Positions 6,350 through 50,427 of a stretch of 64,000 nt of DNA are shown piece by piece; the first letter of the stretch is position 1, and each line of letters opens with the position of its first letter. The translations under genes were made by a program, and so were the position numbers. This DNA comes from Chloroflexi bacterium AL-N1 (GTDB lineage Bacteria; Chloroflexota; Chloroflexia; Chloroflexales; Roseiflexaceae): the NCBI GenBank assembly GCA_013122435.1, contig WYDT01000001.1:310001-374000 (forward strand), written 5' to 3'. The notes under the pieces are model-generated. The model saw nothing but the letters and a program-made list of their open reading frames with translations, was not told the DNA's origin and ran no database searches.

Positions 6350-7279
6350 GTGGAAAAAGTGGTTGCATCTCAGCAGGGCAAGATCCGTGTTGTTCTCAAC
6401 CCTGCGGCAGGAACAAGCACATCTGATGAGGTACGAGCTGTTGTAGAGCAGGCGTTTGGTTCTGCTAATCGACCTTACGACATATATGAAACGAAGCCTG
6501 ACGACGATCTCGGAAGCTATCTTGATCAAGCGAAAAGTGAAGGAGATGGTCTTGTGATTGCTGCAGGCGGCGATGGAACGGTATCGCTTGTAGCCAGTCA
6601 ACTCGTTGGAAGTGGTGTACCTATTGGTATTCTTCCAACGGGAAGTGCCAATGTCCTGGCTCTTGAGTTAGGTCTTCCACAAGACCTGCAAGAGGCTATG
6701 GACATAATCGCAGGGGAACATCAAGTGCACGATTTGGATCTGATGCATTTCGGTGGACGGCATTATATTCTTCAGATTGGTATTGGTATTGACTCTCTGA
6801 TGGTACGTGATACATCACGTAAGGCAAAACGTGTTCTTGGTCGGTTGGCCTATATGGTTACCCTCTTCACTAAATTTATTGGATACCGTTCACGTCGCTT
6901 TACCATTCTTGCCGATGGGCAACGTTTACGCCCACGCGCATGGCAGATTGTGGTTGCGAATGCTGGAACCTTGGGAGCACCTCCGTTCCGTTGGGGTCCC
7001 GATATCAGTCTGAATGATGGTGCTGTCGATATCTGCATCTTTAATGTACGAACACCCTTTAGCTATGTCCGTCAGATCGCACGGGTTCTGTTGGGGCAAC
7101 ATAAAAATGATACACACATCACTTATGTTCGAGTTCAGGAACGCGTAACTATAGCAGCCGATCATTCGCTTCCTATCCAGGCAGATGGTGAAATTGTCCA
7201 TGAATCACCTTTGCAAATCGATGTCGTCCCTCGAGGTGCAAAAGTAATTGTGCCATTGACAAACGACTCACAAGATTGA
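6350..7279 (+). CDS. Diacylglycerol kinase-like lipid kinase (YegS/BmrU family)
   Basis: The 309-residue protein has the diacylglycerol/sphingosine-kinase catalytic fold. Visible motifs are VVLNPAAGTST at residues 15-25, the nucleotide-binding VIAAGGDGTVSLVAS near 65-80, and GILPTGSANVLALELGLP near 90-108. The C-terminal beta-sandwich domain contains the QADGE motif near residue 280. It phosphorylates a lipid hydroxyl, most likely diacylglycerol, at the inner face of the membrane. The start is GTG with AAGGAAGG about 8 bases upstream. Only 24 bases separate it from the PAP2 phosphatase gene, so a kinase and a lipid-phosphate phosphatase acting in opposite directions are probably co-expressed. 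Confidence 0.93.
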   Translation: MEKVVASQQGKIRVVLNPAAGTSTSDEVRAVVEQAFGSANRPYDIYETKPDDDLGSYLDQAKSEGDGLVIAAGGDGTVSLVASQLVGSGVPIGILPTGSANVLALELGLPQDLQEAMDIIAGEHQVHDLDLMHFGGRHYILQIGIGIDSLMVRDTSRKAKRVLGRLAYMVTLFTKFIGYRSRRFTILADGQRLRPRAWQIVVANAGTLGAPPFRWGPDISLNDGAVDICIFNVRTPFSYVRQIARVLLGQHKNDTHITYVRVQERVTIAADHSLPIQADGEIVHESPLQIDVVPRGAKVIVPLTNDSQD

Positions 7280-7303
7280 ATTGCATACTTCTAGGAGAAT
7301 AGC

Positions 7304-8257
7304 GTGAGCAATAAAGAGCAACAGAACGGATCCAAACCTTCGCAAAAATCTCTGAGCAATGCACTCCAACAGGCATTGGAGCAGGTGCAGACCCCGGAAC
7401 AAGCCGACGAGATTATCGCAGATTTGGAAGAGCAGGTGCAAGATAAAACTGATCGTGCTGTAGCAGAGGAGCGTGAGACAACTGATAAAGTGACAGCCAC
7501 TGAAGCTACACAGGAAGTAACTATACACCATCCGCAGAAGCCACAGTCTGCTCTACTGGCAGCGGCAGAGCAGGTAGTACGTGCCGAAGGGGAGGATGCT
7601 GAGGCACTTTCAGAGGAAATACAGGATGTTGTACGCGCAGATGAACAAGAGACAACAGACTCACACTCATACAAAGAACGTCGTCTGTTACAAGAGTCTC
7701 TTCTTCGTCGTCTAGGGCCACTGAGTGCTGCCGATACTGCGCTCTTTCTCATGATCAATAATGACACACCACGTACTCAAACGACTGATACCATTGTGCG
7801 TGGTATCTCAGACCTGATGAACCGTGGTGATGGTTGGGTATTATTACTACTCTTCGCGGCAATGCGCGACCACAAGCAGGGACGGAATGCCTTCCTTGAT
7901 GTGTTACCAGCTCTCTGGTTGACCACAGCGACCGTTGAATATCCGGTCAAATCGATCTTTCGTCGTCGACGACCTTTTATCTCGACTGTGCGTGCCGTTG
8001 TGGTTGGTCGAAAACCAGCAGGATATTCGTTTCCTTCGGGGCACAGTGCGGCTGCTTTTGCAGGGGCCTGGCTTATGAGTCGCCATTATCCACGCTGGGC
8101 AGCCGCCTTTTACACACTGGCAATAGTCGTAGGGTTTTCGCGTGTGTACTTAGGAGCCCATTATCCTGGTGATGTAGCAACAGGCGCAGTGAGTGGGACT
8201 GTGCTGGCAATGGCCTACCGACGCTTGGTCCGTACACTTATCAAGGCACTCGATTAA
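7304..8257 (+). CDS. PAP2 family lipid phosphatase with acidic N-terminal extension
   Basis: This membrane phosphatase of 317 residues has the three PAP2 motifs: KSIFRRRRPF (about 207-216), YSFPSGHSAAAF (about 241-252) and SRVYLGAHYPGDV (about 280-292). Substrates are probably phosphatidate or undecaprenyl pyrophosphate-like lipids. The first 125 residues are soluble and very rich in Glu, Gln, Ala and Thr, with heptad-like spacing that suggests a coiled coil. This part is absent from usual PAP2 proteins of about 200 residues. The start is GTG with AGGAG about 7 bases before it. It follows the lipid kinase gene closely and probably shares its transcript. Confidence 0.92.
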   Translation: MSNKEQQNGSKPSQKSLSNALQQALEQVQTPEQADEIIADLEEQVQDKTDRAVAEERETTDKVTATEATQEVTIHHPQKPQSALLAAAEQVVRAEGEDAEALSEEIQDVVRADEQETTDSHSYKERRLLQESLLRRLGPLSAADTALFLMINNDTPRTQTTDTIVRGISDLMNRGDGWVLLLLFAAMRDHKQGRNAFLDVLPALWLTTATVEYPVKSIFRRRRPFISTVRAVVVGRKPAGYSFPSGHSAAAFAGAWLMSRHYPRWAAAFYTLAIVVGFSRVYLGAHYPGDVATGAVSGTVLAMAYRRLVRTLIKALD

Positions 8258-8372
8258 ATCAATATTTCTCGCTAAAATGTTCAGCACTTTTGGGTGAATT
8301 TGGCACGGTTTGTGTATAAATATATTACATAGATAAAGTTAGCAATTTCCATAAAAGAAAAAGGAGCAACAC

Positions 8373-8657
8373 ATGGGTACGCTTTTAGGTTTTATCATCT
8401 GGTTATTGATTGGTGCACTTATTGGTTGGTTGGCAAGCATTGTCATGAAGACAGACGCGCAACAGGGTCCTTTGCTAAACATCATAGTTGGTATTGTTGG
8501 CGCACTCATTGGTGGTTTTGTTTTTCAATTCCTTGGTATTGGCGGAAGCAACATTAACTCTGACAGCTTTAGTTTGTGGTCTCTCTTTGTTTCATTTGTC
8601 GGAGCACTTATTCTGTTAGCCATTGTTAATCTTGTTCGACGTGGTAGTGTGCGCTAA
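8373..8657 (+). CDS. GlsB/YeaQ/YmgE family stress-response membrane protein
   Basis: This is a 94-residue, very hydrophobic protein with three predicted membrane segments. The glycine-rich pattern GWLASIVMKTDAQQGPLLNI followed by IVGIVGALIGGFVF is diagnostic of the transglycosylase-associated/GlsB family, usually induced by envelope or general stress. Exact function is unknown in the family. AAAGGAG lies seven bases upstream of the ATG. The gene has about 115 bases of its own upstream region and is closed by a strong hairpin terminator, so it is probably a single-gene transcript. Confidence 0.92.
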   Translation: MGTLLGFIIWLLIGALIGWLASIVMKTDAQQGPLLNIIVGIVGALIGGFVFQFLGIGGSNINSDSFSLWSLFVSFVGALILLAIVNLVRRGSVR

Positions 8658-8740
8658 ACAACTTTAGATAACGATACGAGAAACATATAAAACCGCCCAG
8701 AAAAATATAAGTCTTAATGGATGAAAATAAAGCAATTCCT

Positions 8741-8777
8741 GACACTTGAGTGACAAAAATGTCCTCAAGTGTCTTTT
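8741..8777 (+). terminator. Rho-independent terminator of the GlsB-like gene
   Basis: GACACTTGAG (8741-8750) pairs perfectly with CTCAAGTGTC (8764-8773), an inner GAC/GTC pair extends the stem, and TTTT follows. The hairpin also argues against translation starting at the GTG at 8769, which lies inside the stem. Confidence 0.85.
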
Positions 8778-8813
8778 ATGCATAAAACACAGATAGAAGA
8801 AAGAACACAAGCC

Positions 8814-9614
8814 ATGATTCTAAATGCTACGAGTGATATTTTGTTTGATGTAAGTGCCCCAACTCCAATGATTCTCATGCTTCGACCACGAAGTGGTGCT
8901 GGTCAATGGATTGCACGCGAAGCCTATGTGTTAGAGCCACGTGTCCCCATTACCGAATACACGGACCAATTTGGAAATCTGTGTCAGCGTCTTATTGCAC
9001 CACAGGGCCGTTTTCGCATCCATACCAGCGCAGATGTAGCAGTCTCAGAGACGGTCGATGTTGACTATGGTGCCCCTTTTACGCCAATTTCCGACCTTCC
9101 AGAAAACGTACTGTCACTACTCTTGCCAAGCCGCTACTGCGAGTCCGATCAAATGGCCGATCTTGCCCAAACCATTGTTGCAGATGTTAAGCCGGGATAT
9201 GATCAAGTCGAAGCCATTAGAAACTGGATTCATCAGTATGTGACCTATCAGTATCAAACGAGTGATGCATCAACATCAGCCGTCAATACGGCACATACGC
9301 GAACAGGTGTCTGCCGTGATTTTGCCCATCTGGGCATTGCGCTTTGTCGCAGCTTGAGCATTCCGGCGCGTATGGTCGTTGGCTATCTCTACAAACTTGA
9401 TCCGATGGATCTACATGCGTGGTTTGAGGCATTTATAGGTGGCCGCTGGTATACGTTTGATGCAACACAGGCAACGCCACGTGGAGGTCGCATCGCCATT
9501 GGCTATGGCCGCGATGCAGCAGATGTGGCATTGACCACACAATTTGGCCCTGCCACACTCACCTCACTGGAAGTTAGTGTAGACAGGGCTAAAGAAAGTG
9601 ATTTTCACCACTAA
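8814..9614 (+). CDS. Transglutaminase-like family protein
   Basis: The 266-residue protein combines an N-terminal beta-domain, as in bacterial transglutaminase-like proteins, with the transglutaminase/protease-like core. The catalytic Cys is in TRTGVCRDFAHLGIALCR, and the His and Asp are in LHAWFEAFIGGRWYTFDAT. This order (Cys-His-Asp) is that of the papain-like fold. The family is usually annotated as a putative cysteine protease of unknown substrate. There is no signal peptide. I chose the ATG at 8814, since the earlier GTG lies in a terminator stem and the domain begins with ILNATSDILFDVSAPTP. It converges on the receiver gene after 11 bases. Confidence 0.9.
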   Translation: MILNATSDILFDVSAPTPMILMLRPRSGAGQWIAREAYVLEPRVPITEYTDQFGNLCQRLIAPQGRFRIHTSADVAVSETVDVDYGAPFTPISDLPENVLSLLLPSRYCESDQMADLAQTIVADVKPGYDQVEAIRNWIHQYVTYQYQTSDASTSAVNTAHTRTGVCRDFAHLGIALCRSLSIPARMVVGYLYKLDPMDLHAWFEAFIGGRWYTFDATQATPRGGRIAIGYGRDAADVALTTQFGPATLTSLEVSVDRAKESDFHH

Positions 9615-9625
9615 AGTTTGCTCGA

Positions 9626-10006
9626 TTAATCAGGATAACATTTCTGAATGACATCAACCAACTCTTCAACAGTATAAGGTTTCTCTACCAACTCAATACC
9701 CTTTGCGGAAAGTGAGGGGCTTATTTGTTGCATGTTTTGGGTCGATGCAGCACACACAATGAGAGGAATGGTGCGGGTCTGGGGATCAAGGTAGAGCATA
9801 TCCATCAAGGTAAGATGGGCTGCTTCACCTTCTAAGCTGACATCACAAATAATAATATCTGGCTCGATATCTTTAATCTGCTCATAGGCCCCCTGATGTT
9901 GTGTCAATGGTTTCAGGTGATAATCTTCTTTGCCTAAGAGCCGCATAATGAGATCAAGAAACTCGGGTGACTCGTCTACGATAGCTATACGTAGTTTCTT
10001 TTTCAT
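9626..10006 (-). CDS. Stand-alone response regulator receiver (copy 1)
   Basis: This is a single receiver domain of 126 residues with no output domain. The phosphoacceptor is the Asp of IIICDVS (about residue 55), the acidic pair is DE in AIVDESPEF, and the conserved Lys is in VEKPYT. The conserved Thr/Ser after beta-4 is Ala in this copy (LIVCAAST). It is about half identical to the neighbouring receiver at 10178-10561, including the unusual shared stretch DMLYLDP, so the two come from a local duplication. It probably acts by protein-protein contact or in a phosphorelay with the nearby kinases. Confidence 0.92.
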   Translation of the reverse strand: MKKKLRIAIVDESPEFLDLIMRLLGKEDYHLKPLTQHQGAYEQIKDIEPDIIICDVSLEGEAAHLTLMDMLYLDPQTRTIPLIVCAASTQNMQQISPSLSAKGIELVEKPYTVEELVDVIQKCYPD

Positions 10007-10177
10007 AGTTTGTACCTATATCCTACACACGTTCATAAACAACTCTGATATATTGCTACTATGCAAAATATATGCCGAGTCTGTCATTTACTTGGATGCG
10101 ATATATAAGTATCAACTTAGAGAAGATAGAAAGCAAAAGACAAACAGGTTTTAGAAACAAAGACAATGCTATTATTT

Positions 10178-10561
10178 TTACATGTTCTCTTCAATATCAC
10201 GCAGCATAGCTGTGAGTGCCTCAATCGTAAAGGGTTTCTCTAGCCAACGAATACCCTTGGCAGCAAGAGACGGCGCAATGTCTTTCACCTGATACGTTGC
10301 AGCAGAACACAAAATAAGCGGAATTGGACGTGTTTCGGGGTCAAGATACAGCATGTCGATAAGAGTCCACCCATACGGCATGTTCTCAAAAATGAGATCG
10401 CAAACTACAATATCTGGACGGCTCTCTTTGATCTGTTCAAACGCGCCTTGATGCTTTGGAATAGTTGTAACATCATAGCCTTCTGCGGTCAGAAAATCAA
10501 CCATGAGATCTAAGAACTCGGGATAATCATTGACTACAGTGATGTGTTTTTTTCGAGCCAT
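10178..10561 (-). CDS. Stand-alone response regulator receiver (copy 2)
   Basis: This second single-domain receiver of 127 residues is paralogous to the one just downstream. The phosphoacceptor Asp lies in IVVCDLIF, the Lys in LEKPFT, and here the switch residue is Ser (LILCSAAT). The first acidic residue of the usual pair is Asn in TVVNDYPEF. It is separated from the first copy by about 170 bases and from rpoN by about 70, all on the minus strand. Probable role: phosphotransfer or regulation by binding, in the signalling cluster with rpoN and the NtrC-type protein. Confidence 0.92.
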   Translation of the reverse strand: MARKKHITVVNDYPEFLDLMVDFLTAEGYDVTTIPKHQGAFEQIKESRPDIVVCDLIFENMPYGWTLIDMLYLDPETRPIPLILCSAATYQVKDIAPSLAAKGIRWLEKPFTIEALTAMLRDIEENM

Positions 10562-10628
10562 GCAGTTCTCTCAGTTATAGTAATAAAAAGAATAATATGA
10601 GCCTATTCAAAACATATGAGTCTGTATT

Positions 10629-11984
10629 TTACCGCATTCGTGCACGTTGATGCGATGGTGGAATATGCATCTGTTCACGATACTTGGCAACTGTCCGTCG
10701 TGCAATCGAGTAGCCCTGTTCGGTCAACAGCGCGACCAGATCGGCATCGCTCAATGGCTTATCCTCATGTTCGATTAACTCACGCATAACATCTTGCACA
10801 CCACGTGCTGCGACAAAGAATTCGCTTACTGGCAACAAGGTATGGTCGGGTAGCAAGGCAGTTTTGTCGGCAGTTGCCCGGCTTACTGTAGATTCGTGCA
10901 GACCCAGTTCAGCGGCTATCTCCGTACGAGTCATCGGTACCAGGTGGCGAACACCATGACGGAGAAATGCTTCTTGTCGCTCAACGATGACTTCTGTCAC
11001 ACGATACAATGTTGTCTCGCGTTGACGTAGATTAGCAAGAAATGTCCGGGCCCGTGCCACGTATTCCTGCACATGTTCCCGCTCCTCATCATCGAGCGAA
11101 GCGGCTTGTTTTGCTAGTTCCAGATAGGTTGGGTTGAGCTGTAACCGTCGCCGAGGTGAGCGGGCAATCTCTACAATAAATGTCCCATCCTGATCACGAA
11201 TCTCGACATCTGGTCGGCGATAGCGAATGTGTTCTGTAGCACTGTTGGCACCAAAACCGATCTGGGCTGGATACGGCCATAAATGTTTTTGAATAAAATC
11301 ACGTGCAGCTTTGACCTCATCTACTTTGATACCAAGCTGACGCGCTATCTCGGGATAACGGTGTTCACCAAGATCGTCGAAAAATTGTTCAATCAGGACC
11401 TGTACATAGGGATTCGCGATACTTTGTTGTTCTAGTATAGTTAACTGAGTCAAGAGGCATTCTCGTATATCACGTGTGGCAATGCCGGGTGGCCCAATTT
11501 CACGTAGCTTCTGGAGCACATTCGTAACACGATCCAGTGATACGTTGAGTGTTGCTGCAATATCTTCTGGAGTATCGCCCAAAAAACCTTGATCATCAAG
11601 ATTTCCCACCAGGGTGAGAGCGATATCGTGTTCGCTTTCCGGCAGTGAGATAGAGAGATCGGCCAGTAGCCCTTCTGACAGACTACGCGGAGCAGCGACA
11701 AAAAGGAAGGCATCGGTTTCTTCATCGCCCTGATAACTATTTTGCTCCCAGTTTGCCTCATCTTCACGCAGGTCACGTAGCAACTGTTCAACAATGTGTG
11801 GATCAATGTCGCCCTCATCAGGACCCTCTGAATTCTCAATCTCTTCGAGCGCAGGATTCTCCACAAGTTCCTGCTGAACTAGTTCATGGAGCGATATACT
11901 GGGCAACGAAAGCAGATTGACCAGATTGAGCAATGCGGGCGTAACACGGGTTTCCATACCGGGACCAAACGACATATCAAACAT
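10629..11984 (-). CDS. rpoN: RNA polymerase sigma-54 factor
   Basis: The 451-residue protein is sigma-54. Region I at the N-terminus (about residues 1-48) is the activator-interacting part, an acidic region follows, and then the core-binding domain. Near the C-terminus are the helix-turn-helix (EIAAELGLHESTVSRAT) and the RpoN box, ARRTVAKYREQMHIPP, which binds the -24 promoter element. The start at 11984 is set by AAGGAG seven bases upstream. The ATG overlaps the stop of the upstream NtrC-type gene by eight bases (ATGTTTGA), which points to translational coupling. An activator gene directly coupled to rpoN is an unusual arrangement and suggests both are needed together. Confidence 0.97.
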   Translation of the reverse strand: MFDMSFGPGMETRVTPALLNLVNLLSLPSISLHELVQQELVENPALEEIENSEGPDEGDIDPHIVEQLLRDLREDEANWEQNSYQGDEETDAFLFVAAPRSLSEGLLADLSISLPESEHDIALTLVGNLDDQGFLGDTPEDIAATLNVSLDRVTNVLQKLREIGPPGIATRDIRECLLTQLTILEQQSIANPYVQVLIEQFFDDLGEHRYPEIARQLGIKVDEVKAARDFIQKHLWPYPAQIGFGANSATEHIRYRRPDVEIRDQDGTFIVEIARSPRRRLQLNPTYLELAKQAASLDDEEREHVQEYVARARTFLANLRQRETTLYRVTEVIVERQEAFLRHGVRHLVPMTRTEIAAELGLHESTVSRATADKTALLPDHTLLPVSEFFVAARGVQDVMRELIEHEDKPLSDADLVALLTEQGYSIARRTVAKYREQMHIPPSHQRARMR

Positions 11985-44518: not shown

Positions 44519-44541
44519 GGAAACATGTCGATATCGGTCAA

Positions 44542-44659
44542 GTATAAGAGCAGTAGCGGATTTCATGGCGATTAATTGTCCGCCACCACAAAAGTTTATT
44601 AAATGCACAGACTTTGATTTTACCACTTCACCCGCTATTGCTCTTATACAATGTTGGGC
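44542..44659. repeat. Long inverted repeat and GTTGGGC core, left end of island
   Basis: GTATAAGAGCAGTAGCGG (44542-44559) pairs with CCGCTATTGCTCTTATAC (44632-44649) with one G-T pair, enclosing 72 bases. GTTGGGC follows at 44653-44659. The layout (core site next to a long imperfect stem) is what one expects of an attC-type folded recombination site, though a matching core on the far side of the stem is not seen. Confidence 0.7.
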
Positions 44660-44694
44660 AATCGTGCTTTTTCTTTTCTGTCCGTGCGTTGGCT

Positions 44695-44762
44695 CAGACA
44701 CACTCTTTGACAAGCTTTGGCTGGTGCGTTGGCTTTGAGCGGCTTGGCAATGTGTGTGGCTG
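44695..44762. repeat. Imperfect hairpin with TGCGTTGGCTTTG loop, left flank
   Basis: The arm at 44695-44715 (CAGACACACTCTTTGACAAGC, 21 bases long, 17 of 21 paired) matches the arm at 44742-44762. The loop contains TGCGTTGGCTTTG (44725-44737), which is also in the loop of the right-flank hairpin. The mismatches are spaced as small internal loops. Confidence 0.75.
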
Positions 44763-44782
44763 TTGAGCGTTGGAGTCATTGG

Positions 44783-45042
44783 TTATCTTATTTCAATTAT
44801 TTCAACTTCACTGTTTGTGTCGCCTATTGTTACCCTGTCTCCAATTGTTCTACCTTTTATTGAAGCAGCTAAAGGCTTCATAATATTTACAATTTGCACT
44901 CCATCAATAATTTCAGCACCATTAGTAGGATAGTCCACCAATTTCACTTTCAATTCCTTTTCATTACTAAGGAATTGATTTTAACTGTGCTATTAAGTTC
45001 GAATCTATTGTCAAAGAGAGAATTTGGAATGAATTCTACTCA
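44783..45042 (-). pseudogene. C-terminal remnant of the helicase gene (GreA/GreB C-terminal-like)
   Basis: Beyond the TGA at 45040-45042 the same frame continues with coding character (VEFIPNSLFDNRFELNSTV), then one lost base near 44985 moves the reading to NEKELKVKLVDYPTNGAEII and on to IMKPLAASIKGRTIGDRVTI, ending in TNSEVEIIEIR with TAA at 44783-44785. The pattern PL--SIKG--IGD-V-I with a closing EIIEI matches the C-terminal domain of GreA/GreB, which occurs at the end of some large helicases of this class. So the original gene ended here, and a nonsense codon plus a frameshift cut it. Confidence 0.75.
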
Positions 45043-47889
45043 TTCTACTACTAGTTCTTGGTCTTTTTTCGAATGCCGTTTAATTATAGACCATTCAGAT
45101 TCGTAATAATTATTATCAACTGGTTTTCCGTTGGCAGTAAAACTTTGGAATACTAATCGACTGATGTCATTGTAGATATCTAAAGGCAAGACATTGTAAT
45201 CTATTCGGTCAAAATCATTGTAAATTACTTTGTAGCCTTGCAAGTGAAGTTGCTCCCGTGTCGAAATGTTTTCGGTCAAATGGGCTTTGAATTTTCTACG
45301 ACCATTCTCATTGAAGTAAATGCCAATGATTTTTTCAGTTTCAACAGCTTCGATATGCACCAACTCCCCATCTTTATTCAATCCATTCATATATTCTTTC
45401 CCAATTCTCCTTGAAAGAAGTATTGGAATATGGACTTTATTGACATGACCTGATTTATAGCATTGTAGAAGAAAACCTGTCTGGTAAATTTCTTGTATTG
45501 GAATTACATAATCAGCTTCCAATGGCTCTTTATCTGTCAGAATATATGTCCCTGATTTAAATAGTTTGAAGTATCGAAGTATTTTATCTGTTCTTGGTCT
45601 TGAATCAATCGGCTCAAATTGTTCTTCGGGAGTTTCTTCATCATATGTGTCAATGACCAAATCTGAACTTTGCGCATCTGATGAATCATCCGTTCTTACT
45701 TCTTTTTCCTGTTGAATATTAGATTCCTGATAGCCATAATCTGTAATAGGTTCTATCTCTTTTTCTTCAAATACAGGAATCATGTTCCAAAGTGGTTCTA
45801 ATGCTTTCTCTCTGTTGGTGTAATACTCATAACCACGAACTCTGAAGAACTGCCAACCGCATCTTTCAAGTACTTTTTGGCGCATTATGTCATTTTGATG
45901 CTGTTCGGGACCATGCCATTTATCACCATCACATTCTATGGCTATTTTAGTTCCGTCAGGTAATAGAGCAACCATATCAATCTTGTATCGACCTTTCGCC
46001 ACTTCGTATTGAGGAATAATGCTAAGTTGCTTCCGTACAATATCATTGTAAACGTCAACTTCAAACCAACTGTCGAAAGGCTCAGGTTGTGTTCCCATTC
46101 GCCTTTTTATTGGCGTGTTGAAAATCGGTTGATACGAGTTGTAATTTTTGAAATGGTCTAATAGTTTGTAACGTAAATCATTTGTATTACTCAAATCATC
46201 CAACTGAACCGAATGGAATAGAAAAATCTGCTCTTTGGCTCGACTTACAGCAACATTGAAGCGTCTTTCGTCTTCTGGCTTCACAAGTGCTGACCTATTG
46301 TGATTGTGAGCTGTTACCAAGCTTAAAAAGATAATATCCCTTTCATCACCCTGGAAGGATGAAGAGTTCCCACAAACAATTTTACGCTTATGAAATTCCT
46401 TTTCTCCAATTCTTTTCAGGAGTAGGTTTTCAATCACACTTGCTTGTTGATTTCCTTGAAGGGTTATCACTCCGAATGTCTTCCCATTATAGTTTTCGTC
46501 TTCGACTAACTTCCCAATTGTTTCAGCAATATGATTCGCCTCTGGCTCATTTATAATTCTTGCGCCTCTGCCTTCTGTGTAGCCATTGGGACAAAACTCT
46601 GCCACCAATGGTTCAAGACGATTTTCTGAATATTGTTTAAGTGGATAAAGCCCTTTTCCATCAGGGGCATAAAAATGACGATTTGAGAATTCAATTATTT
46701 CAGGCATACATCTGAAATGTTCTCTAAGGACGGTAACTCCATCACAGAAAAATTTAGCATGGTCGAAAAAGCTGAACTCTGTTCCGTAATAATCTGAAAA
46801 CGGGATTCCATTTAGATGACGCTTAATGTGAGGTGTCATTGTATTTGCATCAACACCAACATATTCAGGTGAAGTCTGCTTGTCATCTCCAACGATTATA
46901 ATATTCTTTGTAATATAGAGTAGGAATATCGCATCAGGACCAAGTTGACTGGCCTCATCAATAATTACATAATCGTACATTTCTTGTTCAGGCTGTATCG
47001 TTTCGGCAACCTTGTATAACGGCATAATCCAACAAGGGACAGAATCTTTGCAATGTTCCATTTCTTGTTGAGCAATCTTTCGAAACTTCATTGCCCTTTT
47101 GCCTTTTCCCGTCTTACCAATTTTCTTTACTGCCATTACCCAAGCATCTAAATGCCGTCTTAAAGAGCGGTTTTGTTGAAGACCTTCAACAACTTTATAC
47201 CATGCTTTCTTTGAAGCGAGCTTTGCAGTCAGTTTCCTTTCCTTCCGTTCTAATTCACTAAGGTTTTGAATAAGTTGATTTTCATAGTTCACATCCATCA
47301 GTTTTTCAAGATGATGTTGTGCATTTTTGAAATAAATTGCCTGTTTTAATTTTTGTACATCTTCGACTGAAAAGGAATTGTCCTCTATCAAATCTACTGT
47401 GGATGGGATATTAGAATAAAGATTTAAACGTAAATTTTTGAAATTCAGAAAATTCTCTTTTCCATAGGCTAACTTTTCAATTCTGTTCAGTAATTCTTCA
47501 TAAGTGTGGAAGTCAAGGTTGTTGTATGCTTCAATTATGTTTTCCTTAATTGGGTGGTAGCCTTTTGGAACATACTTATTCAGATATGCGGTAGATTGAT
47601 TAATTAGCTCATCAAACTCCGAAATGCTCTCGTTTAATTTGCTATACTCGGCTTTGAGAATAGATATCTTTAGGTCTTCTTTATCAAAGAGTTTTATTTG
47701 CAAACTACTAATGGATTCAATAGCCGATTTTAATGCGTTTGCTTCATCAATTAACTTTGATAGTCGCAGAACCTCATTTTGGATTTGCTGGAAAAATGAA
47801 AACTTCTTGAATAACAAGTTTCCTTTGGGCACTTCCTTTTCCCCAAATTTCTGATAGCTCAATAAAGTCTTGTCGAAAAGAGATATCAT
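45040..47889 (-). CDS. SF1 helicase C-terminal half with Vsr/DUF559-like nuclease
   Basis: This 949-residue open frame is the second part of one broken gene. It opens with coiled-coil, then has the helicase motifs II (YVIIDEASQLGP), III (IIIVGDDKQTSPEYVG), IV (VLREHFRCMPEIIEFSN), V (FGVITLQGNQQASVIE) and VI (RRFNVAVSRAKEQIFLF) of UPF1-like superfamily 1 helicases. A Vsr/DUF559-type endonuclease domain follows (KIAIECDGDKWHG, ERCGWQFFRVRGYEYY, about residues 655-720). The last 230 residues are of unknown fold. Its first codons overlap the preceding frame; the shift point is near 47837, where AAAA for AAA would explain the break (WGK joined to EVPKGNLLF). Confidence 0.88.
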   Translation of the reverse strand: MISLFDKTLLSYQKFGEKEVPKGNLLFKKFSFFQQIQNEVLRLSKLIDEANALKSAIESISSLQIKLFDKEDLKISILKAEYSKLNESISEFDELINQSTAYLNKYVPKGYHPIKENIIEAYNNLDFHTYEELLNRIEKLAYGKENFLNFKNLRLNLYSNIPSTVDLIEDNSFSVEDVQKLKQAIYFKNAQHHLEKLMDVNYENQLIQNLSELERKERKLTAKLASKKAWYKVVEGLQQNRSLRRHLDAWVMAVKKIGKTGKGKRAMKFRKIAQQEMEHCKDSVPCWIMPLYKVAETIQPEQEMYDYVIIDEASQLGPDAIFLLYITKNIIIVGDDKQTSPEYVGVDANTMTPHIKRHLNGIPFSDYYGTEFSFFDHAKFFCDGVTVLREHFRCMPEIIEFSNRHFYAPDGKGLYPLKQYSENRLEPLVAEFCPNGYTEGRGARIINEPEANHIAETIGKLVEDENYNGKTFGVITLQGNQQASVIENLLLKRIGEKEFHKRKIVCGNSSSFQGDERDIIFLSLVTAHNHNRSALVKPEDERRFNVAVSRAKEQIFLFHSVQLDDLSNTNDLRYKLLDHFKNYNSYQPIFNTPIKRRMGTQPEPFDSWFEVDVYNDIVRKQLSIIPQYEVAKGRYKIDMVALLPDGTKIAIECDGDKWHGPEQHQNDIMRQKVLERCGWQFFRVRGYEYYTNREKALEPLWNMIPVFEEKEIEPITDYGYQESNIQQEKEVRTDDSSDAQSSDLVIDTYDEETPEEQFEPIDSRPRTDKILRYFKLFKSGTYILTDKEPLEADYVIPIQEIYQTGFLLQCYKSGHVNKVHIPILLSRRIGKEYMNGLNKDGELVHIEAVETEKIIGIYFNENGRRKFKAHLTENISTREQLHLQGYKVIYNDFDRIDYNVLPLDIYNDISRLVFQSFTANGKPVDNNYYESEWSIIKRHSKKDQELVVE

Positions 47890-50203
47890 TCAATACAGTT
47901 TCATACTCTTCAATGGTATCGCAAGGACTTCCATTGACACGAACCGCTTCAATAAAATAAAGACGTTCTTTTATTTCTCTTGGTAGAAATGGCTTTTTAA
48001 TTGAAAAAGTAAATCCTGATAACAGATTACCTTCATTTAAGTATGCAAGAAGTACTTGAGCATCATTTTTAAGTTGCTTTAAACTTTTGCCTTGAGGATA
48101 AGAGACTTCAATATCCTTATCAATCTTTCGTAAATCATGCTTTTCAAACTTTTCGAGTACCGCTTTAGAATGATTCAAAACTTGCAACCATTCCTGATTC
48201 CTGCCTTTTAAAAAGGATTCTATGACAGCAGAAGTGAAGTCAATCTGGATTTTATCTACTTCGTTGTAAAAGTTTTGAAGGTTATTTAGCTGTTGAAATA
48301 GTTGCTCAAAACCTGAACATGAAATTTTTAGGTTAGCATCTTTTGGAAAAGAGCCATTGGTAAGCTTGGCAGTAAGATTTGAATATTCCTTTAACTGGTC
48401 AGCAGTAAGTAATTTATTGGGGTCAGGGATTTCAAAATCAAATTCATCAGTTTCAATATGCTTGTAATTTTCATGCAGTTGAATGAATTCCGTTAGACGA
48501 GAAAGCAACTCATTATTTTCAAAATTGCTGAAATCGTCTTCGTACCATTCGAATAATGGCGTATCTCTTTCAAGATTCTCAGCAATTTCAGTTAGAGTTC
48601 CTTTGTATTTCTCGTTAACCTCCTGTTTTCTTGTCGCTTTTTCCTTAATCTTGACAAGACTGTTTGAGGTTTCAGCGATTGATTCTCTCGTTTTTTTTAA
48701 ATCATTTTCAAACTCATCAATTTGTGATTGATACTGAGTTAGATTGGCTCTTGACAATTCATCATTTATGGCATTAACACTTGATTGTAAGTCTTGGATG
48801 GAAGATGAATCCCCACTCAAAAGGTTTACTGCCAAATCCTGAAATTCAGGTGGAAGCTTATCTTTTAGAACTTCCAATGCTCTTTTTGTATAGGCGGTAA
48901 TTAAAACCTTTTTACCGTTTGCGAGCAAGTGACAAATTAAATTGGCAATAGTGTGTGACTTTCCTGTACCTGGAGGGCCTTGAACGAGAACCTTATTATT
49001 TCTTTTGGCTTTTTCAACTATCTCTAATTGTTCGTCATTGTATTCCTTCGGGAAAAATATTGGCTCAATCTGTGAGCCATTAAATGAGTTATCTGATAGA
49101 GAATTATCATCTTCAATATTTGGGTGGATGCCTATAAGGTCATTTATTGTGGGAATTTCAAGGCTATCTTCACCATTTTCAATATTCTCTAATATCTTCT
49201 CATATAGAGCGGTAAAGCTTCGAGTATTTCTTTTTCTAAGTAAGAGAGCTGGGGAAAAAGTGATATTTGGTTTTAAAGGTGTTCTATTTGGCTTTTCAAT
49301 TAAATGGTTATAGCTACCATCAGGAGAAACCCTTTCTGCAAACATTTGTAGGGCATCTTCTGTGTTGCTAAAAATTGTTTCAATATTTTTCTCTTTAATG
49401 TAGTTCTCTACCGCCTTTTCGGCATCTATGATGTTTTGCGAGTCAAACTGGTCAAATAAGTCAAGGATGGAATCAGTTTCAATTTGAGGCGCAGATTCTA
49501 AGTTTGGTGAAACGAAAATTTGTGAGTCCTTTTGAGAGTACTCGAAGTTAATATCGACTCTTTGGGTTAAAATATGTCTGAAAATCTTAGGTCTTTCATC
49601 ATTCTCCTTGAAGTTCAAGAGTCCGACACCAACAACCAACTCGTACTCTTCTCCAAATTGCTGGGTTTTGTTGAATATTCGGAAAAGTTGCTTATAAACA
49701 GCATTTAGTTTTTCATACTTCTCATGTTCAATTCTGTACGCTTCAATTTTCTCGTTATATTCTATCAGGTCATCAATCCATTTTTTGTCAATGTATTGCT
49801 GTAATTCTTTTTCAAGTTCTGGGAAATCTTCAATTGAAAGAGTTTCTCCATTGATTTCAAGTGTTTCCTTTAACTTGGGTTCATCTTCTTCATTTAATAA
49901 TGTTGGCTTGTCAATCCATTTTTCCAAGTTTTCTGTAAGCTTGGCAAATTCTGGTTTCGCTGGCTCTTTAGGCTTTCTTACTTTTAACCAATAGTCGTTG
50001 TCTTCATTGAAGTCGGTTCTGATAATGTTTTCAAAAAGCTCATTATCGGGAATGTCGTTCAGCCAAAATTTCTCGGGATATTGTGTTTCTTGAGCGTCAA
50101 TGTCGCGGACAGGGTTACTTCTAAGTTTCGAGAACTCTTTGAGGTAATTAAATATTTGTAAGTATTTGTCCTTTTTCATTTCACTCAATTCTTCCTTTGC
50201 CAA
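47774..50203 (-). CDS. SF1 helicase N-terminal half, frameshifted
   Basis: This 809-residue open frame is the first part of the large helicase gene. The N-terminal 380 residues are acidic and contain no motif I can name. The nucleotide-binding motif I is KVLVQGPPGTGKSHTIANLI (about 414-433), with motif Ia in KKVLITAYTKRALEVL. A long coiled coil follows (about 480-570), splitting the helicase domain as in UPF1-like/DUF4011-group proteins. After WGK near the end the frame is wrong (GSAQRKLVIQEVFIFP). The start may be TTG at 50203 or the ATG at 50179. Low-GC codon use differs strongly from all other genes in the window. Confidence 0.88.
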   Translation of the reverse strand: MAKEELSEMKKDKYLQIFNYLKEFSKLRSNPVRDIDAQETQYPEKFWLNDIPDNELFENIIRTDFNEDNDYWLKVRKPKEPAKPEFAKLTENLEKWIDKPTLLNEEDEPKLKETLEINGETLSIEDFPELEKELQQYIDKKWIDDLIEYNEKIEAYRIEHEKYEKLNAVYKQLFRIFNKTQQFGEEYELVVGVGLLNFKENDERPKIFRHILTQRVDINFEYSQKDSQIFVSPNLESAPQIETDSILDLFDQFDSQNIIDAEKAVENYIKEKNIETIFSNTEDALQMFAERVSPDGSYNHLIEKPNRTPLKPNITFSPALLLRKRNTRSFTALYEKILENIENGEDSLEIPTINDLIGIHPNIEDDNSLSDNSFNGSQIEPIFFPKEYNDEQLEIVEKAKRNNKVLVQGPPGTGKSHTIANLICHLLANGKKVLITAYTKRALEVLKDKLPPEFQDLAVNLLSGDSSSIQDLQSSVNAINDELSRANLTQYQSQIDEFENDLKKTRESIAETSNSLVKIKEKATRKQEVNEKYKGTLTEIAENLERDTPLFEWYEDDFSNFENNELLSRLTEFIQLHENYKHIETDEFDFEIPDPNKLLTADQLKEYSNLTAKLTNGSFPKDANLKISCSGFEQLFQQLNNLQNFYNEVDKIQIDFTSAVIESFLKGRNQEWLQVLNHSKAVLEKFEKHDLRKIDKDIEVSYPQGKSLKQLKNDAQVLLAYLNEGNLLSGFTFSIKKPFLPREIKERLYFIEAVRVNGSPCDTIEEYETVLNDISFRQDFIELSEIWGKGSAQRKLVIQEVFIFPANPK

Positions 50204-50234
50204 TTTATCAATTTCCTGTCAAGCGTTGGCAAAA

Positions 50235-50297
50235 ATTCAGGCTCTTTTGGTTTTTTGCGTTGGCTTTGTGTGTCGGCAAAACCAAATGTGCCTGAAT
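50235..50297. repeat. Imperfect hairpin with TGCGTTGGCTTTG loop, right flank
   Basis: ATTCAGGC (50235-50242) and TTGGTTTT (50247-50254) pair with AAAACCAA (50278-50285) and GCCTGAAT (50290-50297), leaving a symmetric 4/4 internal loop. The loop contains TGCGTTGGCTTTG (50256-50268), identical to the left-flank hairpin. GCCCAAC follows at 50321-50327. Confidence 0.85.
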
Positions 50298-50427
50298 GTG
50301 CGGTCGGCTTTCTGCATGTTGCCCAACATCGGTGTAAAGCCAGACTGAACTGATTGGTACGCATACAAAGTCAAACAGTGGCCGACTCACTATCTGAGTC
50401 GGCCACTGTTTTGTTGAACCAAATATG

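Follow-up and report, generated by a model that had tools for sequence, protein, structure and literature searches.

Hhe, an anti-phage protein with a DUF4011-helicase-Vsr architecture (NF042953 / PDLC02194), combines an SF1 helicase and a Vsr-like nuclease in a single large protein. The CnuH protein of type III-B CoCoNuTs likewise joins a Vsr-like nuclease to a UPF1-like helicase (PMC11090510). In another anti-phage protein, ProA (NF058533), the region from helicase to nuclease aligns with the gene that we describe here. The closest named relative is PDC-S37, a PADLOC candidate: helicase, insertion and nuclease all align, and an intact copy of our gene (L025) scores 227 bits over positions 254-1366 of 1550. 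PDC-S37 is a candidate family only, and our literature search found no paper naming it.

Other SF1 motors reach RNA polymerase (RNAP). HelD, an NTPase that recycles RNAP, carries a Gre-like element that enters the polymerase (PMC7749165). PcrA/UvrD helicases are reported to contact RNAP through a C-terminal Tudor domain (PMC7585439, PMC5397179). In Gre and Rnk proteins it is the globular domain that binds RNAP (PMC4598747; PMC7749165).

The gene described here resembles each of these systems in part. Like Hhe it encodes a single large protein, but it lacks DUF4011 and has two extra domains, a GreA/GreB C-terminal-like domain (Gre-C) and a gyrase-CTD-like domain. Unlike the CoCoNuTs, which have a CnuB/McrB GTPase as partner, the gene stands alone; in the scanned neighbourhood of the closest copies, Pfam gave no match to such a partner. 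It shares the SF1 motor and a Gre-like part with HelD, but HelD is UvrD-like, has its Gre-like part at the N-terminus with a long coiled-coil, and no nuclease domain has been described for it. PcrA and UvrD belong to another SF1 family, have no nuclease and are housekeeping proteins.

The two main ORFs of the window copy scored 124 and 50.5 bits against Hhe (cut-off 2000 bits), and 167.6 and 73 bits against ProA (cut-off 1500 bits). The match to the PDC-S37 model does not extend to the Gre-C tail of the subfamily, and the Gre-C fusion occurs in none of the defence models tested; our literature search found no paper on a Gre-helicase-nuclease defence protein. A preliminary description of this DNA stated that this combination of domains could not be linked to a named system. 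This holds for the Gre-C fusion, but not for the core, which is nearest to PDC-S37.

Results

A transferred gene in three pieces

The window, the whole stretch of 64,000 nucleotides that we analysed, covers positions 310001-374000 of contig C2 in an 8.16-Mb host genome (G000). The host appears to be Chloroflexota-like, judging from its own proteins and relatives. The gene lies on the minus strand at 44783-50203 and is broken into three pieces. Its two main ORFs overlap, and each is half of one protein (Table 1). Alignment to four intact copies reveals three lesions in the window copy: a 1-bp frame change near 47840, a second one near 44976, and an in-frame stop near 45040. The Gre-like tail (~45010-44783) is split where a stop codon falls in frame and where the frame changes. 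Despite these lesions, dN/dS of the window copy against intact copies is only 0.12-0.16. The window copy has either decayed recently or is partly misassembled.

We searched for homologues in one scan of GTDB genomes. Near-identical proteins occur in other phyla, in Aureibaculum marinum (L025, 92% amino acid identity) and a Saprospiraceae MAG (L026, 91%), with further near-copies in Muricauda sp. (L028, 90%) and Cyclobacterium jeungdonense (L027, 85%). In all four the gene is a single ORF of 1,798-1,818 codons that ends in the Gre-like domain. The copy of an Akkermansiaceae MAG (L029, 76%) is without the Gre tail, L030 retains only part of the Gre domain, and a Desulfobacteraceae MAG holds a broken copy (L033). 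The gene has moved between phyla. Given the intact near-copies and the low dN/dS, we therefore regard it as a real, transferred and selected gene; taken whole, the intact genes are under purifying selection.

The intact ORFs confirm the earlier reading of one gene of about 1,800 codons. Its coordinates were also correct, though the foreign ends reach further, to about 44535-50326. That the gene is far more AT-rich than its surroundings is equally true: G+C is 0.344-0.382 along the gene stretch versus 0.418-0.527 (mostly 43-53%) elsewhere in the window. We rejected contamination, as the unit sits inside a 551-kb contig with flanks of higher G+C on both sides.

Table 1. Features of the unit, in window coordinates
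Feature	Position	Strand	Evidence or remark
Whole foreign cassette-like unit, single gene	44535..50326	-	DNA identity limits and hairpin
GTTGGGC, 5' cassette core site	50321..50327	-	same in L025 and L027
ORF with N-terminal region and Walker A	47774-50203	-	809 aa
N-terminal region, ~375 aa, conserved family-wide	49050..50179	-	40-sequence alignment
Helicase motif I, GPPGTGKS (Walker A)	48956..48979	-	sequence; AAA_11 1.3e-13
Long insertion separating motif I from motif II	47000..48700	-	sequence; includes first frame change near 47840
ORF with helicase motifs II-VI and nuclease	45040-47889	-	949 aa
Helicase motifs II-VI region	46234..46959	-	AAA_12 1.3e-21
Motif II, DEASQ	46959		
Motif III, GDDKQ	46890		
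Motif V region, FQGDERD	46356		
Motif VI, VAVSRAK	46254		
PD-(D/E)xK nuclease, PF18741 (MTES_1575)/DUF559	45778..46065	-	PF18741 3.3e-26, DUF559 6.5e-5
Domain resembling the gyrase/topo IV C-terminal beta-pinwheel (weak support)	45140..45600	-	PDB profile 1wp5
GreA/GreB C-terminal-like tail, interrupted	44783..45010	-	intact equivalents in L025-L028
attC-like hairpin at cassette 3' end (model R1)	44523..44669	-	153 bits, itself a training sequence

A conserved helicase-nuclease core

Domain, tree and structure work used the intact copies instead of the window copy. The preliminary description had recognised UPF1-like SF1 helicase motifs and a Vsr/DUF559-type nuclease, and the Pfam matches bear out both (Table 1). 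Against the PDB, the best relatives of an intact copy are yeast UPF1/NAM7 (2.3e-13), SEN1 and SMUBP-2, and because these are the best solved relatives the label UPF1-like is right. Most residues of helicase motifs II, III, V and VI are invariant in the family alignments, and so are the core residues of the nuclease motifs (WFEVDV, ID.V and ECDGD.WHG) across seven relatives. Judging by its sequence, the insertion between motifs I and II is probably helical or coiled-coil.

The N-terminal region gives a good AlphaFold2 model (mean pLDDT 83). It had no PDB match at E<=0.001 and no significant Pfam match; DUF4011 was absent from the N-terminal 400 aa of L025 (Pfam, E<=5).

Gyrase-CTD-like domain and Gre-C tail

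Between the nuclease and the Gre tail sits a domain that the preliminary description lacked. Its sole PDB profile match is topoisomerase IV (1wp5, E=0.015), and a relative, L034, matches PF03989 with E=0.0048. The structural model of this middle domain and the Gre tail is poor (mean pLDDT 42.9). Foldseek on this low-confidence model returns some gyrase/ParC CTDs at E>1, non-significant matches that are at most consistent with the assignment.

The GreA/GreB C-terminal-like tail, also part of the preliminary description, is found again in the intact proteins. In L025 it matches PF01272 with E=1.3e-5 (25.5 bits, just below the cut-off of 26.9), and related tails are well over the cut-off (L018 5.6e-11, L049 4.2e-14, L066 1.1e-11). 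Compared to solved structures, a profile of eight Gre tails matches Rnk, GreA, a GreA/GreB entry, Gfh1 and GreB, and nothing besides these at E<=0.1. By sequence similarity, the tail would share with Gre factors the C-terminal globular (FKBP-like) domain that binds RNAP. Unlike in Gre factors, the Gre domain of the subfamily is divergent and without the coiled-coil that acts inside RNAP: where Gre factors have their acidic-tipped N-terminal coiled-coil, the tail is preceded by a linker, the nuclease or the gyrase-CTD-like domain. Because of this divergence and the missing coiled-coil, docking on RNAP is putative. We give it a somewhat better than even chance.

The unit has ends like those of an integron cassette

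The DNA that is 94% identical to L025 runs from 44542 to 50328; for L027 the limits of identity are 44649 and 50329. The 5' end of the unit lies inside GTTGGGC (50327-50321). The 3' end comes after a hairpin, in ...TTGACCG at 44541-44535. We infer the exact cut point, G|TT, from the hairpin family and a second unit in the host genome.

The core sites of attC sites have the consensus RYYYAAC and GTTRRRY. The hairpin is preceded by GCCCAAC, of which the 5' GTTGGGC is the exact inverse complement, and it resembles attC in these core sites as well as in a folding, covarying structure. Compensatory changes occur at 7 of its 16 pairs (11 sequences), and when the single strand was shuffled 200 times, no shuffled version folded equally well. 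An Rfam scan of the unit gave sub-threshold matches only.

The hairpin recurs in Flavobacteriales, as part of a query that had matches in 46 of 296 genomes. With a covariance model, we found it clustered in Bacteroidota genomes (Aureibaculum, Cyclobacterium, Muricauda; L174, L175, L176, L177, L178). The clusters flank small cassettes. Two hairpin sites, for example, flank genes for mobile mystery proteins A/B (mob_myst A/B; HTH and Fic), and others border RelE/HigA-type genes, a methyltransferase with an HTH gene, or a possible endonuclease. Such clusters may belong to a Bacteroidota cassette system that has been little described and has no recognised IntI. A plasmid search with the hairpin had no match.

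Among 201 Chloroflexota genomes, the hairpin occurs in the host genome only, twice. The second copy, at about 112580-113850 of contig C4 (L173:5081-6350, minus strand), belongs to an AT-rich foreign cassette with matching ACACAAC/GTTGTGT ends. This cassette (C4:112580) carries a gene of 359 aa, for which there was no NCBIfam match.

The host genome has a true IntI (TIGR02249, 483.6 bits, cut-off 265) on contig C22, not adjacent to the cassette; none of five other host genomes searched has an IntI over the cut-off. We rejected a local array near the IntI, since the hairpin model has no match in the 20 kb at the start of C22. So the cassette, if mobilised by an integron, went in at a distance from the platform. 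There are published descriptions both of a distant IntI inserting off target and of attC clusters without an integrase (PMC8618304). A transposon was rejected as well: the unit contains no transposase, there is no clear target duplication, and ends of the G|TT type suit cassettes better. In the set searched for an empty site, the genus is represented by the host genome only. We take the unit to be an integron-type cassette, with a presumptive mobilising recombinase.

The gap from the insertion to the following gene contains, at 50373-50411, a perfect 17-bp inverted repeat, AAACAGTGGCCGACTCA. It is probably the terminator of the following gene.

The core is constant and the tail is exchanged

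In 72 sampled relatives the helicase-nuclease core is constant and the C-terminal tail varies. The tail is Gre-C in eight, 'ALWxxGG' in 12, winged-helix-like (wHTH-like) in 12 (a label from a sequence pattern without a significant Pfam match), DUF3320-like in seven (a weak Pfam match), gyrase-CTD-like in five, Lsr2 DNA-binding in two and UvrD-Tudor-like in one (L022, a weak match with E=0.004). Another 10 have other tails and 15 have none (<60 aa).

The 'ALWxxGG' tail comprises about the last 75 aa, with the pattern 'ALWxxGGxEL...FxYxxxGS..T..RPAWFT'. It is common on Bacillota relatives (L039, L040, L044, L048, L056, L074, L080, L090 and others) and had no Pfam match when L048 was scanned. The Lsr2 DNA-binding tails (PF23359, 9e-15 and 2e-16) end two Streptosporangiaceae relatives (L089:6352-11172, L103:6049-10887). 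Such a tail would be the AT-rich-DNA reader of a xenogeneic silencer, fused to a nuclease.

On the core tree, the Gre label requires at least five changes on well-supported branches, some of which may be losses. A replacement is seen in two phage-borne sister relatives, L018 with a Gre-C tail and L106 with a wHTH-like tail (support 100/98). Their cores are 93.1% identical over 1,466 aa, while their tails are unrelated (22%). At the DNA level the gene is 91% identical and the flanks 75-78%, and the 91% stretch ends near the end of the nuclease region. In this pair the gene was exchanged and its tail replaced.

A constant engine with swapped tails suggests a machine that can be re-targeted. Alternatively, the Gre-like tail could be incidental: it would be inert and serve structure or dimerisation, while the N-terminal region would do the targeting. 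The N-terminal region is indeed conserved and the tails vary or are missing. But in the core tree Gre-C turns up on three or more separate branches, intact genes are under purifying selection as a whole, and we consider an incidental tail the least likely of the alternatives.

Tail exchange is also what one expects of bait. If the Gre-C tail of the defence effector were an integrated decoy, looking like a host transcription factor under attack from phage proteins that bind RNAP, the enzyme would fire when the tail is bound or displaced. RNAP is a common phage target, and the other tails include further look-alikes of host machinery (gyrase-CTD-like, Lsr2 DNA-binding and UvrD-Tudor-like). Direct DNA binding, however, explains the wHTH-like and Lsr2 tails equally well. 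A decoy seems improbable to us.

Phages, plasmids and neighbouring genes

A viral scan with the single window protein as query found no relatives; viral relatives were found once an alignment served as query. Relatives of the gene occur on temperate phages and plasmids. In the temperate phage L018 the gene (7156-11946) lies between a DNA methyltransferase (phrog_27806) and the minor-head, portal and terminase genes, and L105 and L106 share this layout (DNA and neighbours scanned). On plasmid pZRK30-2, a gene for a PC4/YdbC-type ssDNA-binding protein (L024:6374-6601) lies 15 bp upstream of the relative; it could be another transcription-linked partner.

Near the relatives, GmrSD, McrBC and D12 methyltransferases recur, together with several PADLOC families. 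Among 150 proximal neighbours 117 PADLOC models were matched, versus 48 among 148 distal genes of the same loci, a rough enrichment that counts models and not genes. The immediate neighbours of the closest intact copies are mostly ordinary (aldehyde dehydrogenase, M50 peptidase), with one GmrSD. The gene is thus not regularly set in defence islands. The preliminary description called large helicase and Vsr/DUF559 nuclease proteins common in anti-phage islands, which agrees with the relatives near GmrSD, McrBC and methyltransferases but mostly not with the closest copies.

A lone mobile gene would explain this context better than a housekeeping gene would. Another alternative is an enzyme for transcription conflicts or transcription-coupled repair, which, like HelD or UvrD, would dock on stalled RNAP and clear nucleic acid without any role in defence. 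A motor with a Gre-like or Tudor-like tail does parallel HelD and PcrA/UvrD (PMC7749165). However, the gene is patchy across phyla, it is carried by phages and cassettes, its nuclease is fused, and its nearest families are defence candidates. Such a repair enzyme is even less probable than a decoy.

A selfish gene would have the same mechanism, but would shield its cassette or prophage from competing plasmids and phages, and the host would gain little. It would suit the same position in the related temperate phages L018, L105 and L106, and a cassette type shared with genes of the toxin-antitoxin type. These data do not separate it from host defence, and we find it as improbable as a decoy. A role in either defence or exclusion between elements is, overall, quite likely. 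What stands of the proposed single-protein defence gene is a foreign, mobile single gene with PDC-S37, Hhe and ProA as nearest models and carriage on phages, plasmids and cassettes.

Discussion

Our preferred explanation, to which we give even chances, is that the gene is a recently decayed single-protein effector acting on nucleic acids, most probably against phages. It would have arrived from Bacteroidota as an integron-type cassette, and its tail would aim the engine, here at RNAP. We infer the antiviral role, RNAP docking, the substrate and the targeting by the tail.

In the intact protein, an ATP-driven UPF1-like SF1 motor would feed the fused PD-(D/E)xK nuclease, and the C-terminal module would select where this engine works. 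In this subfamily the module would consist of the gyrase-CTD-like domain followed by Gre-C. Gre-C would dock the engine on RNAP at the binding place of the Gre and Rnk globular domain, the secondary-channel rim. The docked engine could then attack transcribed foreign DNA, R-loops or nascent RNA. The RNAP binding of the Gre/Rnk globular domain and the precedents of HelD and PcrA/UvrD lead us to propose that transcription guides the Gre form of the helicase-nuclease.

A broader reading, which we hold only tentatively, is that a common chassis has been retargeted in evolution by tail exchange and spread by phages and integron-type cassettes. Gre-C would direct it to the polymerase, Lsr2 to AT-rich DNA and the gyrase-CTD-like tail to wrapped or supercoiled DNA; wHTH-like, UvrD-Tudor-like and other tails would retarget it further. 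The Gre-C form would then be a nuclease that recognises invaders via the host polymerase.

The integron-cassette-like unit and the swapping of C-terminal modules on a constant core are new in this analysis. A helicase-nuclease aimed by its tail is an unusual design principle. The unit would show integron-type cassettes moving a large nuclease gene between phyla; toxin-antitoxin-type and methyltransferase genes are found in cassettes of this type too. Through the swapped tails, nature provides matched proteins, among them the pair with 93% identity whose ends are Gre-C and wHTH-like. If the enzyme does defend its host by docking on RNAP, then a nuclease that is blind to sequence would find foreign DNA by following transcription.
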